A DNA stretch of 56,234 bases from an uncultured Methanobrevibacter sp. (GTDB lineage Archaea > Methanobacteriota > Methanobacteria > Methanobacteriales > Methanobacteriaceae). Made by a program: the position numbers and the translations under genes. This document shows positions 5,897 through 42,560 of this stretch, in pieces. The stretch is from assembly GCA_902771225.1 (NCBI GenBank), contig CACXWH010000009.1, positions 1-56,234 on the forward strand. The letters run 5' to 3'. The notes below the pieces were generated by a model. The model searched no databases. It had not been told where the DNA came from and was given only the letters and a program-made list of their open reading frames with translations. The first letter of the stretch is position 1; each line of letters opens with the position of its first letter.

Positions 5897-6454
5897 TTAT
5901 TTTTTACATATTTTATAGAAGTTTTCAAATATCTGTGATCCTTTTGGGGTGTGATGTACTTCTGGGTGGAACTGTATTCCATATACATCTTTGGTTTTAT
6001 GTTTAAAGGATTCAATATCACATAATTTTGAATTAGCTAAAATTTCAAATTCATTCGGAATGCTTTTAACTTCATCTTTATGTGATGACCAAACCGCCAT
6101 TTCTGGGGCCAGATTTTCAAACAAATTTTCATCATTGATAATATTGATTTGAACTTGAGCATAACTTTCAGTGTTGGAAGTTGAAACTTCCCCACCATAA
6201 CTTTTAGCAATTAACTGATGGCCTAAACATATTCCTAAAGTAGGTATGTCAAAATGTTTAATGTATTCTTCACTGTTTCCAGCACCTTCAATTGAAGGAC
6301 CGCCACCTAAAATTAATCCTGTTGGATTTTTAGATTCCATTTCTTCAATACTTAATGTATTGGGAACTAATTCGGATTCAATTTTAAGATATTGTAAACT
6401 ACGTTGAATTCTATGGTTGTATTGGCCTTTATTATTAACTACTAATATTGTCAT
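5897..6454 (-). CDS. guaAA: GMP synthase subunit A (glutamine amidotransferase)
   Basis: This 185-aa class I glutaminase supplies ammonia to subunit B. The catalytic triad is visible: Cys76 in GICLGHQ, and His163 and Glu165 in QFHPEVHH. The oxyanion-loop motif [13 protein letters not shown] lies near 48-60. The ATG giving MTILVV was preferred to an upstream in-frame codon because family members start there. It is the first gene of the gua cluster and is transcribed divergently from thg1. Confidence 0.93.
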
Positions 6455-6561
6455 ATTATGCTCCAAAATATTATGATATTATTTTTGGTTTTTTTCATTT
6501 ATTATACTTTGTATCAAAATTTATATCAACTGTTTCAAAAATTTCAAATCAACAGAGTTAA

Positions 6562-6581
6562 GGTATAAAACTCATATAAAG
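6562..6581 (+). promoter_or_regulatory. TATA elements upstream of thg1
   Basis: GGTATAAAAC (6562-6571) and CATATAAAG (6573-6581) resemble archaeal TATA boxes. They lie 60-80 bp before the thg1 ATG, leaving a leader with room for the GAGGTGA ribosome-binding motif near 6630. Which of the two is used cannot be told. Confidence 0.4.
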
Positions 6582-6642
6582 TAATTTCTTTATATTATTT
6601 ATCTATTTTAAACTAAATTATTAATCATGAGGTGAAAAATTA

Positions 6643-7407
6643 ATGCACTTCGATGATTTTGACAAGGAAATGAGAAAATACGAAGAATCAATAGACCAAT
6701 ATATTCCTGAAGACAAATATATTGTTGTTCGTCTCGATGGACGCTCATTTACTCGTTTGACTAAAAGAGTATGCAAATTCAAGGTGCCATTCGATGAAAA
6801 GTTTAGGGATTTAATGACCGATACTGTTAAATCATTAATGGAAAGTGGTTTTAAAATTGTATACGGTTATACTGAAAGTGATGAGATTTCACTTTTATTC
6901 CATCCTAGTGAGGATACTTTTTCAAGAAAGGTGAGAAAAATTAATACAACTCTTGCAGGAGAAGCCAGCGCAGCTTTTTCACTTAACATTGGACAAATTG
7001 CAACTTTTGACAGCCGTGTAGTACCGCTTCCAGATAAAAAAAGAGTAGGGGACTACTTCAGATGGAGACAGGAAGATTCCCTCAGAAACGCCTTGCAGGG
7101 ATACTGTTATTGGACTTTAAGGGATGAAGGAAAAACTGCATCTCAGGCTTCCAGAATCCTTAACCGTAAAGGTGTTAAGTTTAAAAAAGATCTTTTGGCT
7201 GAAAAGGGCATTGATTTTGACAGTGTTCCAAACTGGCAAAGATATGGGTGTGGCATCTACTTTAAAGAAATTGAAAGAGAAGGATTCAACCCAATTAAAA
7301 ACGAAAAAGTAATTGCAAAAAGAAGAGAACTCTTTGTGGATTACGAAATCCCCTATGGGGTTGAATACAAAGATTATGTTTTGGAATTTTTAGAGGATGA
7401 TGTCTAA
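6643..7407 (+). CDS. tRNA-His guanylyltransferase, Thg1 family
   Basis: This 254-aa enzyme adds nucleotides to tRNA 5' ends in the 3'-5' direction. Eukaryotic Thg1 adds G-1 to tRNA-His, while archaeal and bacterial Thg1-like proteins repair truncated tRNA 5' ends using the template strand. The metal-binding carboxylates correspond to Asp32 in VRLDGRSF and Asp80/Glu81 in YTESDEISLLF. The following KINTTLAGEASAAFS and FDSRV are family motifs. The start has a GAGGTGA motif 8-10 bp upstream. An RNA ligase lies directly downstream on the same strand, which suggests RNA repair. Confidence 0.92.
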   Translation: MHFDDFDKEMRKYEESIDQYIPEDKYIVVRLDGRSFTRLTKRVCKFKVPFDEKFRDLMTDTVKSLMESGFKIVYGYTESDEISLLFHPSEDTFSRKVRKINTTLAGEASAAFSLNIGQIATFDSRVVPLPDKKRVGDYFRWRQEDSLRNALQGYCYWTLRDEGKTASQASRILNRKGVKFKKDLLAEKGIDFDSVPNWQRYGCGIYFKEIEREGFNPIKNEKVIAKRRELFVDYEIPYGVEYKDYVLEFLEDDV

Positions 7408-38923: not shown

Positions 38924-38996
38924 GCTACTGTAACACAATTGGCAGTGTGTCGCCCTCGTAAGGCGAAGGTTGCGGGTTCAAGTCCCGTCAGTAGCT
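38924..38996 (+). tRNA. tRNA-Thr (anticodon CGT)
   Basis: The cloverleaf is complete in 73 nt. Acceptor GCTACTG pairs with CAGTAGC, the anticodon stem TCGCC pairs with GGCGA around loop CTCGTAA, and the T arm is GCGGGTTCAAGTCCCGT. The anticodon CGT at 38957-38959 reads ACG. The 3' CCA is not encoded. It lies at the border between the eha operon and a block of accessory genes. Confidence 0.95.
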
Positions 38997-39019
38997 TTCA
39001 AATTAATGAGGTTTTTAAA

Positions 39020-39370
39020 ATGAAGAGAGAAAATGTAATAATTATAATTTTAATAGCTTTTATTATTATAATTGGGGGTGTAATTCTAGTAATGGGTTTT
39101 AGTGACTTCTCACTTCCGCATAATAATGTCAATACTACTTCTAATCACACACATACTAATAATTCATCAAATGTAACTCATAATGTTAATGATGTTCAAA
39201 ATAGTGATTCTTCCAGTTCTCAAGGTTCTGGTAGTAGTGCCTCTAGTTCTCAAGGTTCTGATAGTAGTTCTTCTAGTTCTTCCAGTTCTTCTAGTTCTTC
39301 CAGTTCTTCTTCAGACTCTTTTGTTCCCGGTCAAGCACCAGGTACAGAAAATAACGGGGATTTTGATTAA
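39020..39370 (+). CDS. Membrane-anchored Ser-rich surface protein
   Basis: The 116-aa protein has an N-terminal membrane helix (about 5-28) followed by an Asn/Thr/His stretch, then a serine-rich low-complexity tract (about 60-100) and a short acidic end. The start ATG has GAGGT 8-12 bp upstream. An upstream extension of the frame would run into tRNA-Thr and was discarded. It is probably an exported, possibly glycosylated spacer on the cell surface. The serine tract is built of repeated short TCTAGT/TTCCAG units and may vary in length. Confidence 0.65.
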   Translation: MKRENVIIIILIAFIIIIGGVILVMGFSDFSLPHNNVNTTSNHTHTNNSSNVTHNVNDVQNSDSSSSQGSGSSASSSQGSDSSSSSSSSSSSSSSSSSDSFVPGQAPGTENNGDFD

Positions 39371-39506: not shown

Positions 39507-40628
39507 ATGAATAAAAGTGATTTGGAAAGAGATTATTACATGCTTAAGGGTCCACTTGCAAAACAAGGTTATGATTGGTGGTGGCATTCACTTACTGCAT
39601 ATAATAAGGAAACTGGGGAAGCAAAACCATTTTTTATTGAATATTTTGTCTGTAACCCTGCATTAGCTGAGGATAAACCTGTATTAGGTCAAGATCCTGA
39701 AAACAAAAAATTAGGTAAAAAACCTTCTTATTTTATGATGAAAGTAGGAACTTGGGGTAAAGATGCTAAACAAATACATAACTTTTACTCAATGAAAGAT
39801 TTTCAATGTCCTGATAATGAATTAGATATTCGTGTGGGAGACTGTTCACTATCTGAAACTCATATGTCTGGTTCATGTACGGTAACACCTGAAGATGCTG
39901 AAAATCATCCAGAATTTATGTGTGATGCTGGAGATATGAGGTGGGATTTGGATATTGATAAACAAATTGCTTTCAATGTTGGTTATGGTGCAAACGGATT
40001 ATTTAGAAAATTAAACTCTTTTGAAATGTTTTGGCATGCTGAAGGAATTAAAACTCAATACAGTGGAAGTATTTGGCTGGATGGTGTTGAATATGAAGTT
40101 ATTCCTGAAAAATCATATGGTTATGCTGATAAAAACTGGGGAGGAGACTTTACTTCACCATGGCTTTGGATTTCATCTTGTAATTTAACTAGTCTTAAAA
40201 CAGGTAAAAAATTAAATAATTCTGCATTTGAAGCAGGTGGTGGAAGACCAAAAGCTTTTGGAATATCCATTCCTCGTAAATTATTAATAGGTTTTTATTA
40301 TGAGGGAACGATGTATGAATACAATTTTGCAAGGTTTTGGAACATGGTTAAAATTGATTTTGATTTTGAAGAGGGGGACGATGTCCACACTTGGCATGTA
40401 AATGCATCTAATAAGAATTCACGTATGGAATTGGTATTGTACTGTAAACGTGATGAAATGTTACTTATTAATTATGAAGCTCCAAATGGTAAAAAACTTC
40501 ACAATCGCTTATGGAACGGTGGAAACGGTTGGGGTGAAATCAAATTATATAAAAAAGATGGTACATTAATTGATCATGTAAAAATGGAAAATACTGGTTG
40601 TGAATACGGGGAGTATGATAAAGAATGA
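39507..40628 (+). CDS. Tocopherol-cyclase-like protein
   Basis: The 373-aa protein matches the tocopherol cyclase family (PF14249 type). It is rich in Trp, with the hallmark YGYADKNWGGDF followed by SPWLWISSCNL (about 207-230) and the N-terminal YDWWWHS (about 22-28). Plant and cyanobacterial members close the chromanol ring of vitamin E, but homologues of unknown function occur in anaerobic gut bacteria. No signal peptide is visible. The stop overlaps the next gene, a phytol-kinase-like protein, in ATGA. The real substrate in a methanogen is unknown and may be an isoprenoid related to membrane lipids. Confidence 0.78.
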   Translation: MNKSDLERDYYMLKGPLAKQGYDWWWHSLTAYNKETGEAKPFFIEYFVCNPALAEDKPVLGQDPENKKLGKKPSYFMMKVGTWGKDAKQIHNFYSMKDFQCPDNELDIRVGDCSLSETHMSGSCTVTPEDAENHPEFMCDAGDMRWDLDIDKQIAFNVGYGANGLFRKLNSFEMFWHAEGIKTQYSGSIWLDGVEYEVIPEKSYGYADKNWGGDFTSPWLWISSCNLTSLKTGKKLNNSAFEAGGGRPKAFGISIPRKLLIGFYYEGTMYEYNFARFWNMVKIDFDFEEGDDVHTWHVNASNKNSRMELVLYCKRDEMLLINYEAPNGKKLHNRLWNGGNGWGEIKLYKKDGTLIDHVKMENTGCEYGEYDKE

Positions 40629-41299
40629 TTTGGTCGGATATCCTAGCATTGATTATTGTATATATTTATGTAGCAGCCATATTTGTAATATCCGAATTGG
40701 TTTTAAAAACTAAACCTGAGGTTTCACGTAAATTTTTACATATTATGGTAGGTAATATGATTTTTGCCATGCCATTTTTCTCTGATCCTTGGGTAATGGT
40801 CTGGTTTTTAACTCTCCCAATCACAATAGCATTATTCTTCTTAACCGAATACTCACCTATTAAAATTCAAAATAGCGTAACGGAATCTGGCCATGCATTA
40901 GGATTATTCTTTTATGCAGGTATTTGGACAATTTTAATTGCAATATTTGCAAATCACATATGGATTGTTGCTTTAGCGATTGTTCCGATGGTTTATGGTG
41001 ACGGTTTTGCAGCGTTAATAGGTCAAAAATTCGGTAAGGTTAAATATAAGGTATTTGGTGGTGAAAAATCTCTTGAAGGATCACTTACAATGTTTGTTGT
41101 GACAACTGTAATGAGTGTATTTGTATGGATGGTTTTCTCAACAATCGGGTATCCAATGCCTAACTTTAATTTATTTGCTATTTTAGGAATTTCTGCTGTT
41201 GCAACTATTTGTGAAGCCTTAAGTTATGGTGGAATTGATAATTTAACTGTTCCGGCTTTGACTTCAATTTTATATTATTTGGTAACTATTACAATATAG
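40625..41299 (+). CDS. Phytol/dolichol-kinase-like membrane protein
   Basis: The 224-aa protein with about six or seven helices belongs to the CTP-dependent kinase/cytidylyltransferase superfamily that includes phytol kinase VTE5 and dolichol kinase. Motifs are VSRKFLHIMVGN (about 33-44) and VYGDGFAALIGQKFGK followed by FGGEKSLEGS (about 120-147). It would phosphorylate a membrane isoprenoid alcohol. It overlaps the tocopherol-cyclase-like gene by 4 bp, so the two act together. In an archaeon it could salvage geranylgeraniol or phytol for lipid synthesis. Confidence 0.82.
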   Translation: MIWSDILALIIVYIYVAAIFVISELVLKTKPEVSRKFLHIMVGNMIFAMPFFSDPWVMVWFLTLPITIALFFLTEYSPIKIQNSVTESGHALGLFFYAGIWTILIAIFANHIWIVALAIVPMVYGDGFAALIGQKFGKVKYKVFGGEKSLEGSLTMFVVTTVMSVFVWMVFSTIGYPMPNFNLFAILGISAVATICEALSYGGIDNLTVPALTSILYYLVTITI

Positions 41300-41424: not shown

Positions 41425-41691
41425 ATGAATGGATATGAAAGAGCAGCTGAAAGAGTTGACAGAAAACTTAAATTTTATAGAAATTTTATTTGTTATATTA
41501 CTGTAAATGCATTTTTAATAATTCTTAATGCAGTATATACTCCTGAATTCTGGTGGGCAGTATTTCCTGCATTCTTCTGGGGTATTGGTGTTGTTAAAGA
41601 CTTTTTAAAAGCATTTGTATTTGCAAATCTCTATACTGAAGAGTATAGGGAAAGAAAAATCGCTCAAGAAATGGAGAAAATGAAAACATGA
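41425..41691 (+). CDS. 2TM-domain protein
   Basis: The 88-aa protein has two membrane helices (about 22-40 and 44-66) between a basic N-terminal helix (ERAAERVDRKLKFYR) and a charged C-terminal helix. This is the layout of the bacterial 2TM domain (PF13239), which often sits beside LytTR regulators. It overlaps the LytTR gene by 4 bp. Confidence 0.78.
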   Translation: MNGYERAAERVDRKLKFYRNFICYITVNAFLIILNAVYTPEFWWAVFPAFFWGIGVVKDFLKAFVFANLYTEEYRERKIAQEMEKMKT

Positions 41692-42128
41692 AAGTAAATT
41701 TGTTCTTTTCAAAGGATGTTGAAGAGCCACATGCGGATATTCACACAAACGAGTTAACAGACAATATACAAAAAGCAATTAATCTTTTGGAAGATGAATC
41801 AAAAAACGACATATTTGCAGTTAAAAAAGGAAAAGATATTACTTTTTTAGAATATGGTGAAATTTTCATGATTCGTGTTGAAGATAAATCCGTTAAAGTT
41901 TATACTCAAGATGATGAATATGTGGTAAAAAAAGCATTATATCAAGTTGAAGAGTCTCTGGACGAGTCTTTTGTTCGTATATCGAAAACTACTGTTATTA
42001 ATATTAAAAAAATTGACCGTGTTGCACCTTCCTTAAAAGGTATGATGTTTATAATGATGAAGAATGGTTTGAAGGATAATATTTCAAGAAAATATTTGCC
42101 TGAATTTAAAGAGGCTTTAGGTTTGTAG
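41688..42128 (+). CDS. LytTR-family DNA-binding regulator
   Basis: In the 146-aa protein residues about 45-144 form a LytTR DNA-binding domain: YGEIFMIRVEDKSVKVYT, then SFVRISKTTVINIKKID and the final MKNGLKDNISRKYLPEFK. There is no receiver domain. The N-terminal 40 residues are short and unassigned. With the DUF3021 membrane gene downstream and the 2TM gene upstream it has the layout of LytTR Regulatory Systems, in which the membrane partner holds the regulator inactive. The family is common in Firmicutes and rare in archaea. Confidence 0.88.
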   Translation: MKVNLFFSKDVEEPHADIHTNELTDNIQKAINLLEDESKNDIFAVKKGKDITFLEYGEIFMIRVEDKSVKVYTQDDEYVVKKALYQVEESLDESFVRISKTTVINIKKIDRVAPSLKGMMFIMMKNGLKDNISRKYLPEFKEALGL

Positions 42129-42137
42129 GTGTTAATT

Positions 42138-42560
42138 ATGAAAATCACTGTTTTAATTGAAAGACTTGCATTAGGTGCATTTGTCGGTTGTTTTATCGTT
42201 TCATTAATTGAAGTATTAATAGCATTTCAGTCAGGACCGCAAAATGTTGTTTTTTCAGGTTATGATGTAATTAATGCATTTTTCGGATCAATTGTAATTG
42301 GATGGGCATTTTCTTTAAGTGGTTTAATCTATGATAAGGAAGATTTGTCTTTGCCTTTACAGGTAATGTTCCAAATGGGAATCGGGTTTATAGTATTGTT
42401 TAGTGTAGCTATTTATTTGGGTTGGCTACCGCTGACTTTTGGTATTGGTGTAATAATTGAGTGGATTATTATTGCAATTATCTTTGCATCAGTATCCTGG
42501 TTAGGTTTTTATATTTATTACTATTTGGAAGCTCGAGAAATAAATCAGAAATTACAATAA
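42138..42560 (+). CDS. DUF3021 membrane protein
   Basis: The 140-aa protein has four membrane helices and the short Firmicutes-like DUF3021 pattern, ending YYLEAREINQKLQ. The ATG at 42138 has AGGTG upstream and follows the LytTR stop by 9 bp. In streptococci, membrane partners of LytTR regulators (HdrM, BrsM) restrain the regulator. A similar role here is inferred from the pairing. Confidence 0.83.
   Translation: MKITVLIERLALGAFVGCFIVSLIEVLIAFQSGPQNVVFSGYDVINAFFGSIVIGWAFSLSGLIYDKEDLSLPLQVMFQMGIGFIVLFSVAIYLGWLPLTFGIGVIIEWIIIAIIFASVSWLGFYIYYYLEAREINQKLQ

Follow-up and report, generated by a model that had tools for sequence, protein, structure and literature searches.

A conserved pair of cyclase-like and kinase-like genes in gut Methanobrevibacter, possibly acting on isoprenoid alcohols

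Why would a methanogen carry, end to end, two genes that resemble enzymes of vitamin E synthesis? The question is raised by a stretch of 56,234 nucleotides from an uncultured Methanobrevibacter sp. (contig CACXWH010000009.1 of assembly GCA_902771225.1; hereafter the window), in which a gene for a tocopherol-cyclase-like protein (gene 1) runs into a gene for a kinase-like membrane protein (gene 2, or the kinase). A first-pass annotation of the sequence had read them as ATGA-overlapping genes of the VTE1 and VTE5 types, possibly making a cyclised isoprenoid, an interpretation that is partly supported by the present analysis. We hypothesize, tentatively and at a little less than an even chance, that in gut and rumen Methanobrevibacter the two genes form a cassette: one would encode an acid-type enzyme that modifies isoprenoids, the other a kinase of isoprenoid alcohols, and the two would work on a common pool of alcohol. 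This proposal builds on computed families, fold and conservation of the pair, on a clade of the kind left by an imported gene, on a pair history shared by two genera, and on the absence of the kinase from its old slot. The features of the pair are as follows.

39507..40628, plus strand: gene 1, open reading frame (ORF) for a cyclase-like protein of 373 amino acids (aa), PF14249 family, AttH/CrtC-type fold, from profile match and model
39576..39587, plus strand: WWWH, gene 1 residues 24-27, the same letters in 66/66 aligned relatives
40122..40142, plus strand: YADKNWG, gene 1 residues 206-212, by alignment the counterpart of YxEKNWG in VTE1, with Asp208 for Glu
40625..40628, plus strand: ATGA stop/start overlap of genes 1 and 2
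40625..41299, plus strand: gene 2, ORF for a membrane protein of 224 aa, likely a cytidine triphosphate (CTP)-dependent isoprenoid-alcohol kinase as predicted from a weak profile, a model and motifs
40727..40741, plus strand: RKFLH, gene 2 residues 35-39, by alignment the charged clamp RKxxH of prenol kinase
40994..41023, plus strand: YGDGFAALIG, gene 2 residues 124-133, YGDG in 17/17 homologues
41066..41083, plus strand: KSLEGS, gene 2 residues 148-153, KSxEGS in 15/17 homologues and KTxMGS in 2

The overlap noted at first pass is real and could be placed exactly, and the pairing is conserved outside this genome. Gene 2 lies downstream of gene 1 on the same strand for 54/58 gene 1 matches in the window's genus (g1) and for 14/16 in a second genus (g15), that is, the pair is kept in 68/74 matches of the two genera. 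Wherever both genes were called in loci of the window type (15/15) they overlap by 1-7 nt, in seven of them by the 4 nt of the ATGA type; in the second genus the two genes are 56-181 nt apart. Since both the overlap and the pairing are conserved, chance adjacency is unlikely. The pairing is not obligatory. It was absent for nine of nine matches in g18 (a Methanosphaera-type genus, as the gene 1 protein of genome G140 is identical to that of locus L098), for the single match in g12 and for three proteins of a type with EKDWG, 0/13 together, and several genomes, M. smithii included, have the kinase without gene 1. In the lists of PMC7772410, mru_0432 appears as tocopherol cyclase and mru_0460 as dolichol kinase. 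Among open-licence PMC papers we found no account of the pairing.

Outside the pair the kinase is in most cases next to a thymidylate-kinase-like (TMK) gene, and often near a UbiA gene as well, an association that is new here. From 28 kinase loci we set apart six in which the kinase is of the paired type or has gene 1 as a neighbour (L043, L201-L205). In the other 22 the TMK gene adjoins the kinase in 21 and UbiA is close in 14; in the exception, L200, the TMK gene lies approximately 3.3 kb away, outside the stretch examined. In the six set apart, TMK was found only in L203 and UbiA in none. Conserved clusters of UbiA, kinase and TMK-like gene were also seen in other members of the order (L045-L050, L186-L189, L196, L198-L199). 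The remark of the first-pass annotation that no prenylquinone genes lie nearby must accordingly be corrected, for UbiA and TMK-like genes do lie beside this kinase in relatives. The UbiA gene near the kinase would encode the archaeal-lipid prenyltransferase. It is these old neighbours of the kinase, not the name of the cyclase, that provide the isoprenoid link of our proposal.

The TMK-like protein is a candidate for the second kinase of an isoprenoid-salvage route, for which alcohol to monophosphate to diphosphate to ether lipid would be the natural guess. The kinase-linked TMK of L044 shares 67% identity with one of the two PF02223 genes in the window's genome and 27% with the second; it is therefore a second paralogue and not the lone housekeeping deoxythymidine monophosphate kinase. 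Across 151 genomes the kinase and the TMK-like gene occur together in 99, each alone in 3 and 3, and neither in 46. These counts follow the removal of four weak kinase matches (G037, G143, G146, G153), which lowered the genomes with a kinase from 106/151 to 102, and the p-values for co-occurrence ignore shared ancestry.

In five relatives the genes stand in the order cofH, kinase, TMK (G011, G078, G091 and G095 of the window's genus, and G042). In 30/30 same-genus loci, those with the 30 highest scores against the window's TMK among 102 genomes and hence all near the window, TMK comes directly after cofH with 14-97 nt between matches, and the kinase is missing. Gene 1 is carried by 27 of these 30 empty-slot genomes; the remaining three (G077, G104, G110) are without gene 1 but have a paired-type kinase elsewhere. 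The same empty slot between cofH and TMK was found in G012 and G079. A kinase tree united the paired-type kinases from the two genera, 19 in number, in a single clade (support 98/99), against genus lines, and a single clade of all same-genus kinases was rejected (p = 0.0014, approximately unbiased (AU) test); this tree carries a long-branch warning, and two of its 19 paired-type rows come from G004 and G077, which have no intact gene 1. In the TMK tree g15 was grouped (98/99) and g1 stood weakly apart from G012 (80/88). These computations show that the kinase is missing from its old cofH slot in the window's lineage, and that the pair has a shared history in the two genera. Duplication followed by loss could mimic part of this pattern. 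G065 has a diverged gene 1 (57% identity) ahead of a kinase of the older type and TMK, which may show how the pair arose or may be an independent case.

What kind of protein is gene 1? It belongs to the tocopherol cyclase family in the Pfam sense, with a PF14249 score of 45.6 bits against a cut-off of 26.6 (E = 6.6e-12), and the same profile matches 66/66 members of its alignment (A3). The match spans residues 161-368 only, the C-terminal half. VTE1 cyclases of photosynthetic organisms are described as having a conserved YxEKNWG with FP+xWxW+QxNxF nearby (PMC4963081). Gene 1 shares the aromatic-rich core ending in KNWG but differs in the acid: all 66 relatives read Y[A/S]DKNWG (YADKNWG in 61, YSDKNWG in 5), with Asp in 66/66. 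At the place of the second motif the window has FTSPWLWISSCN, in which W-x-W is retained and the Q and F are not, and at least 53 of the 66 relatives show FTSPW[LV]W[IL]SS after the core motif. Unlike VTE1, gene 1 is moreover archaeal, paired with a kinase and, in a search for HPPD and UbiA, without a sign of a tocopherol pathway. Because the core motif differs from that of VTE1, and its Asp recalls that of AttH/CrtC-type enzymes, we treat "tocopherol cyclase" as a family label and see in gene 1 no evident orthologue of VTE1. Heterotrophic bacteria are already described as having tocopherol cyclase-like proteins, with function given as not known (PMC4963081).

An AlphaFold2 model of gene 1 built from 66 sequences (predicted local distance difference test (pLDDT) 90.6) has the two-lobed, lipocalin-like fold of the AttH/CrtC type, aligned over 256-295 residues. 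The nearest solved folds are CghA, Fsa2, Phm7, AttH NE1406, kievitone hydratase and 25-phosphosteroid lyase (25-PSL), at Z 18.8-23.6, the next row falling to 9.3. These matches cover the whole length (residues 1-14 to 371-373), although gene 1 is only 6-14% identical to the solved members of the superfamily. Kievitone hydratase and 25-PSL likewise show an Asp at the core-motif place, before the WG, in alignments to gene 1 that are not significant by E-value. In the CrtC hydratase Tyr266-x-Asp268 is reported as required, alanine mutants being inactive (PMC4717167). A search of solved-structure sequences with gene 1 alone returned chance-level rows only. With the gene 1 profile, kievitone hydratase and 25-PSL were among five rows at E 0.24-0.41, not significant alone, and the other rows were unrelated (archaellin and two HPPD entries). 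Aligned by hhalign with the other VTE1-like type (A5), gene 1 gave a probability of 75 and E = 2.6e-5, with the core motif aligned. The likeliest common denominator would be acid catalysis on an isoprenoid-like substrate. As the fold group holds hydratases, a lyase and pericyclases, the cyclised product suggested at first pass is one option of several. The idea that gene 1 might produce hydroxyarchaeol drew no support from the literature, where the one paper listed dealt with another subject.

Gene 2 is likely a faint relative of the CTP-dependent lipid kinases, to judge by motifs and model. In the profile check proposed with the first-pass annotation PF14249 found gene 1 and PF01148 did not find gene 2: run over the window's genome, the latter profile gave no match at this locus, and it was weak in 2/17 gene 2 homologues (best E = 0.0031). 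An AlphaFold2 model from 20 sequences (pLDDT 79) placed cytidine diphosphate diacylglycerol synthetase (CdsA) in rows 1-4 of a search of the Protein Data Bank, at probability 0.97-1.00 and E of only 0.025-0.08. The charged clamp RKxxH, described for the Plasmodium prenol kinase (PMC10849223), is present in 16/17 homologues and reads RRFVH in the remaining one. The clamp, and perhaps a CdsA-like fold at marginal E, are what gene 2 has in common with the VTE5/FOLK/Sec59/PolK kinases (COG0170, CdsA superfamily); it differs in that the window's protein matches no profile, and its kinase activity is predicted only. The gene 2 profile found nothing at E 1 among solved-structure sequences, and hhalign against the genome's DUF92 protein (probability 4) gave no support for kinship. 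"VTE5 type" is thus true of gene 2 at superfamily level only. The M. smithii orthologue of gene 2 has been called a "putative dolichol kinase" (PMC12134362), and a figure legend in PMC10939349 lists a "phytol kinase" for the M. smithii region that also contains CofH.

Gene 1 is not confined to methanogens. In a scan of species genomes at least 570 of 598 matched stretches encoded a relative, although the use of two patterns means that a single gene could have been counted twice. The 80 loci retained comprise 27 archaeal and 53 bacterial ones. The bacterial loci bear Bacillota/Clostridia-type labels, with the exception of two Chloroflexota and one Treponema. Among the matches listed, the nearest named relative is from a ruminant Methanobrevibacter metagenome-assembled genome (MAG; 96% identity). 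In the window's phylum PF14249 matched at E 0.001 in 86/151 genomes and 6/20 genera, all within the window's family; in G149, G150 and G152 the protein is of a different, shorter type with EKDWG. Loci L052, L053 and L054, from two other genera of the family, encode a VTE1-like protein of approximately 325 aa with an EKDWG core, a better PF14249 score and no kinase beside it. In L109 (positions 6001-7117, a Methanobrevibacter MAG) the cyclase-like match is not a multiple of three and contains no intact ORF, pointing to a frameshift or an assembly error. Among 300 genomes drawn from the family of G155 a match was found in 31, of which 25 were near full length.

A gene 1 tree was computed by a quick method from 12 of the 27 archaeal and all 53 bacterial scan loci, the window and four further loci from the genome search, with two distant faecal scaffolds as outgroup. 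The 17 archaeal rows formed one starred clade among the bacterial rows (Shimodaira-Hasegawa-like approximate likelihood ratio test, 99). Because the archaeal copies are one clade among Bacillota copies, gene 1 looks imported, and transfer from gut bacteria (Bacillota) to methanogens is the simplest reading, the direction being inferred. A search of plasmids gave no match to gene 1, nor did one with a Methanothermobacter-type kinase, and none of 32 pattern matches in an IMG/VR scan with gene 1 was a relative. Two matches in phage records (L082 and L083; MT837528.1 and MT838316.1; 38-40% identity) lie on unannotated human-faecal scaffolds deposited as "Bacteriophage sp."; we rejected them as phage genes since their ORFs read as bacterial chromosome. 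By eye these ORFs include xylulokinase-like, LacI-type regulator and GlgD-like ones.

The bacterial neighbourhoods of gene 1 are varied. In 7/53 loci (L127, L129, L134, L138, L141, L159, L160) a short-chain dehydrogenase and a flavin mononucleotide (FMN) ene-reductase of one type lie beside gene 1, and these seven are exactly one starred subclade of the gene 1 tree. Among 20 further bacterial loci, taken from the 25 near-full-length matches in the family of G155, the same arrangement was found in three (L179, L180, L182) and was missing in 17; either gene order occurs. The further sample is not fully independent, in that the contigs of L167, L168 and L171 are as long as those of L126, L132 and L151; L179, L180 and L182 match none of the first seven. 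Loose matches were excluded, namely those of the ene-reductase query in L126, L150 and L167 (28-32% identity) and of the dehydrogenase query in L106 (26%). An aldehyde ferredoxin oxidoreductase adjoins gene 1 in L141 and L160, directly after it, and is one gene away in L122. Such alcohol, aldehyde and ene chemistry would suit an alcohol-type substrate in that subclade, and the dehydrogenase/ene-reductase clusters are candidates for a reductive pathway acting on a lipid-like substrate in gut bacteria. In L119 (5959-7854) and L122 (7125-11053) a DUF362 gene follows the cyclase-like gene with short gaps or overlaps, the cluster of L122 being also the one with the oxidoreductase.

From context and fold, the handling of isoprenoid alcohols by an acid-type enzyme and a kinase is the most likely role of the pair, and the isoprenoid alcohols named at first pass hold up as a plausible substrate. 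For the activities, the substrate, the order of steps and the direction of transfer we infer the following. Gene 1 would be a soluble AttH/CrtC-type enzyme, imported from Bacillota, whose acid, most likely Asp208, would protonate or rearrange an isoprenoid double bond or alcohol, with hydration, dehydration, isomerisation or cyclisation as the outcome. Gene 2 would be a membrane-bound CTP-dependent kinase for a geranylgeraniol-, phytol- or dolichol-like alcohol, a diverged form of the kinase found elsewhere in the order with a TMK-like and often a UbiA gene. Both would draw on one alcohol pool, gene 1 making or consuming the alcohol or its phosphate and gene 2 phosphorylating the alcohol.

Several results weigh against this proposal. 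The main one is that 9/9 Methanosphaera-type genomes have gene 1 and neither the kinase nor TMK. The kinase persists where gene 1 has decayed or gone, as in G077 and in G004, where a 39-codon remnant of gene 1 precedes it. In G091 and G095 gene 1 lies apart from an old-type kinase, hence gene 1 does not require the new arrangement. No kinase relative was detected in any of the 53 bacterial gene 1 loci (tblastn, E 1e-5; some loci are short), and no neighbour of gene 1 common across bacteria was found, most bacterial copies having no shared neighbour. Neither Pfam, PF01148 included, nor NCBIfam gave a match to gene 2, and two second-genus kinases with KTxMGS lack the Glu of KSxEGS. Fold likeness shows no function. 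In the TMK tree, finally, the joining of the paired g1 rows with g15, as grouped in the kinase tree, was not rejected (p = 0.114, AU test).

The leading alternative is that the genes are neighbours that do separate jobs: gene 1 would have inserted upstream of a kinase gene that is mobile, and from then on both would have moved as a unit. It is favoured by the unpaired gene 1 of Methanosphaera-type genomes (0/9) and of bacteria, by a kinase that outlives gene 1, and by the wider gap in the second genus. We regard it as rather unlikely, given the overlap of 1-7 nt in every window-type locus with both genes called, the retention of the pair in 68/74 matches of two genera, and a kinase clade that tracks the partner and not the genus.

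A kinase-lyase pair as in anaerobic sterol breakdown is improbable. Gene 2 would phosphorylate an isoprenoid alcohol and gene 1 would eliminate the phosphate to leave an alkene, e.g. phytadiene. The parallel is the successive action of a 25-hydroxysteroid kinase and a protein of the AttH type on the alcohol of an isoprenoid side chain, 25-PSL being described as acting after the kinase (PMC11061730), and 25-PSL is among the close folds of gene 1 (Z 18.8-19.6). Against this, gene 1 resembles 25-PSL only remotely (11-12% identity), its fold scores are higher with pericyclases, AttH and kievitone hydratase, and gene 1 also occurs without a kinase. The likeness is at fold level, and the sterol kinase may be unrelated to gene 2.

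Similarly improbable is a non-catalytic gene 1, a lipocalin-like carrier or detoxifier of diet lipids with only a secondary link to the kinase. Its barrel-type fold and its wide occurrence in gut bacteria without fixed partners would fit such a role, but the acid core motif and WWWH are conserved in 66/66 relatives and most of the related solved proteins are enzymes. A true tocopherol or chromanol-type pathway, with VTE1 and VTE5 function, is very improbable despite the PF14249 match and a DUF92 gene (VTE6-type family) in the genome at E = 3.5e-59, since Glu is replaced by Asp in 66/66 relatives, DUF92 also matches the control archaea M. jannaschii, H. volcanii and M. acetivorans, HPPD (TIGR01263) had no match in the window's genome (99.88% complete; HPPD and UbiA were the pathway genes searched), and the single UbiA gene there is by eye like the UbiA beside the kinase in relatives. 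The first-pass view that no tocopherol pathway is in sight is therefore upheld, and nothing suggests that the pair makes vitamin E.

A published element bears on the movement of the kinase in our cassette proposal. In M. smithii PS a 2,970-bp circle derived from positions 76,619-79,634 is approximately 600-fold over-represented in vesicle DNA (PMC12134362). According to that report its genes are msm_0078, a putative dolichol kinase, together with cofH and comD (msm_0078-0080), one border cuts a thymidylate kinase gene, and neither border showed direct repeats to the authors (PMC12134362). In our data for G078 (L190/L252) the kinase occupies 76,892-77,551, inside the published interval, and the TMK-like gene spans 76,330-76,878, so that one border of the interval falls within it; our locus and the published circle thus coincide. 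The circle thus bears a kinase orthologous to gene 2, beside cofH; it differs from our locus in having no cyclase-like gene, and the window's lineage lost the kinase from this very site. That such circles carried the kinase to its new site is speculation.

Joined to the cassette, this leads to a broader scenario that we consider a long shot, namely that thanks to the pair rumen methanogens can make use of the phytol of plant chlorophyll, or of related isoprenoids in the diet. Gene 1 would reshape the alcohol, the kinase would activate it, and a TMK-like or DUF92 protein would add the second phosphate, after which the alcohol would be incorporated into the lipids of the archaeal membrane or excluded from them. 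The mobile kinase would have reached its new site through vesicle-packed circular DNA, as known for its M. smithii orthologue.

Around the pair, one further group of features was recognized.

41425..42560, plus strand: trio of 2TM, LytTR and DUF3021 genes downstream of the pair, a putative regulatory module, from Pfam matches

The trio has a bacterial look and may serve to regulate the locus. LytTR comes after the pair in 12/16 loci of the same type (one of the other four being too short to tell) and in 0/4 loci of the second genus. Upstream of the pair lie a tRNA-Thr (38924-38996) and a serine-rich, probably membrane-anchored or secreted ORF (38939-39370), the mechanical start of which overlaps the tRNA.

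Both protein families were known and have hardly been studied in methanogens. The history of the pair can be traced through a bacterial import, the absence of the kinase from its old isoprenoid-type cluster and the presence of the pair in two genera, and this history points to a concrete class of substrates, the isoprenoid alcohols. If true, our proposal could connect plant phytol, or the turnover of lipids, with the membranes of methanogens that are common in the rumen. It also offers a comparative handle on the role of the vesicle-borne circular DNA of M. smithii, the bearer of the orthologous kinase.

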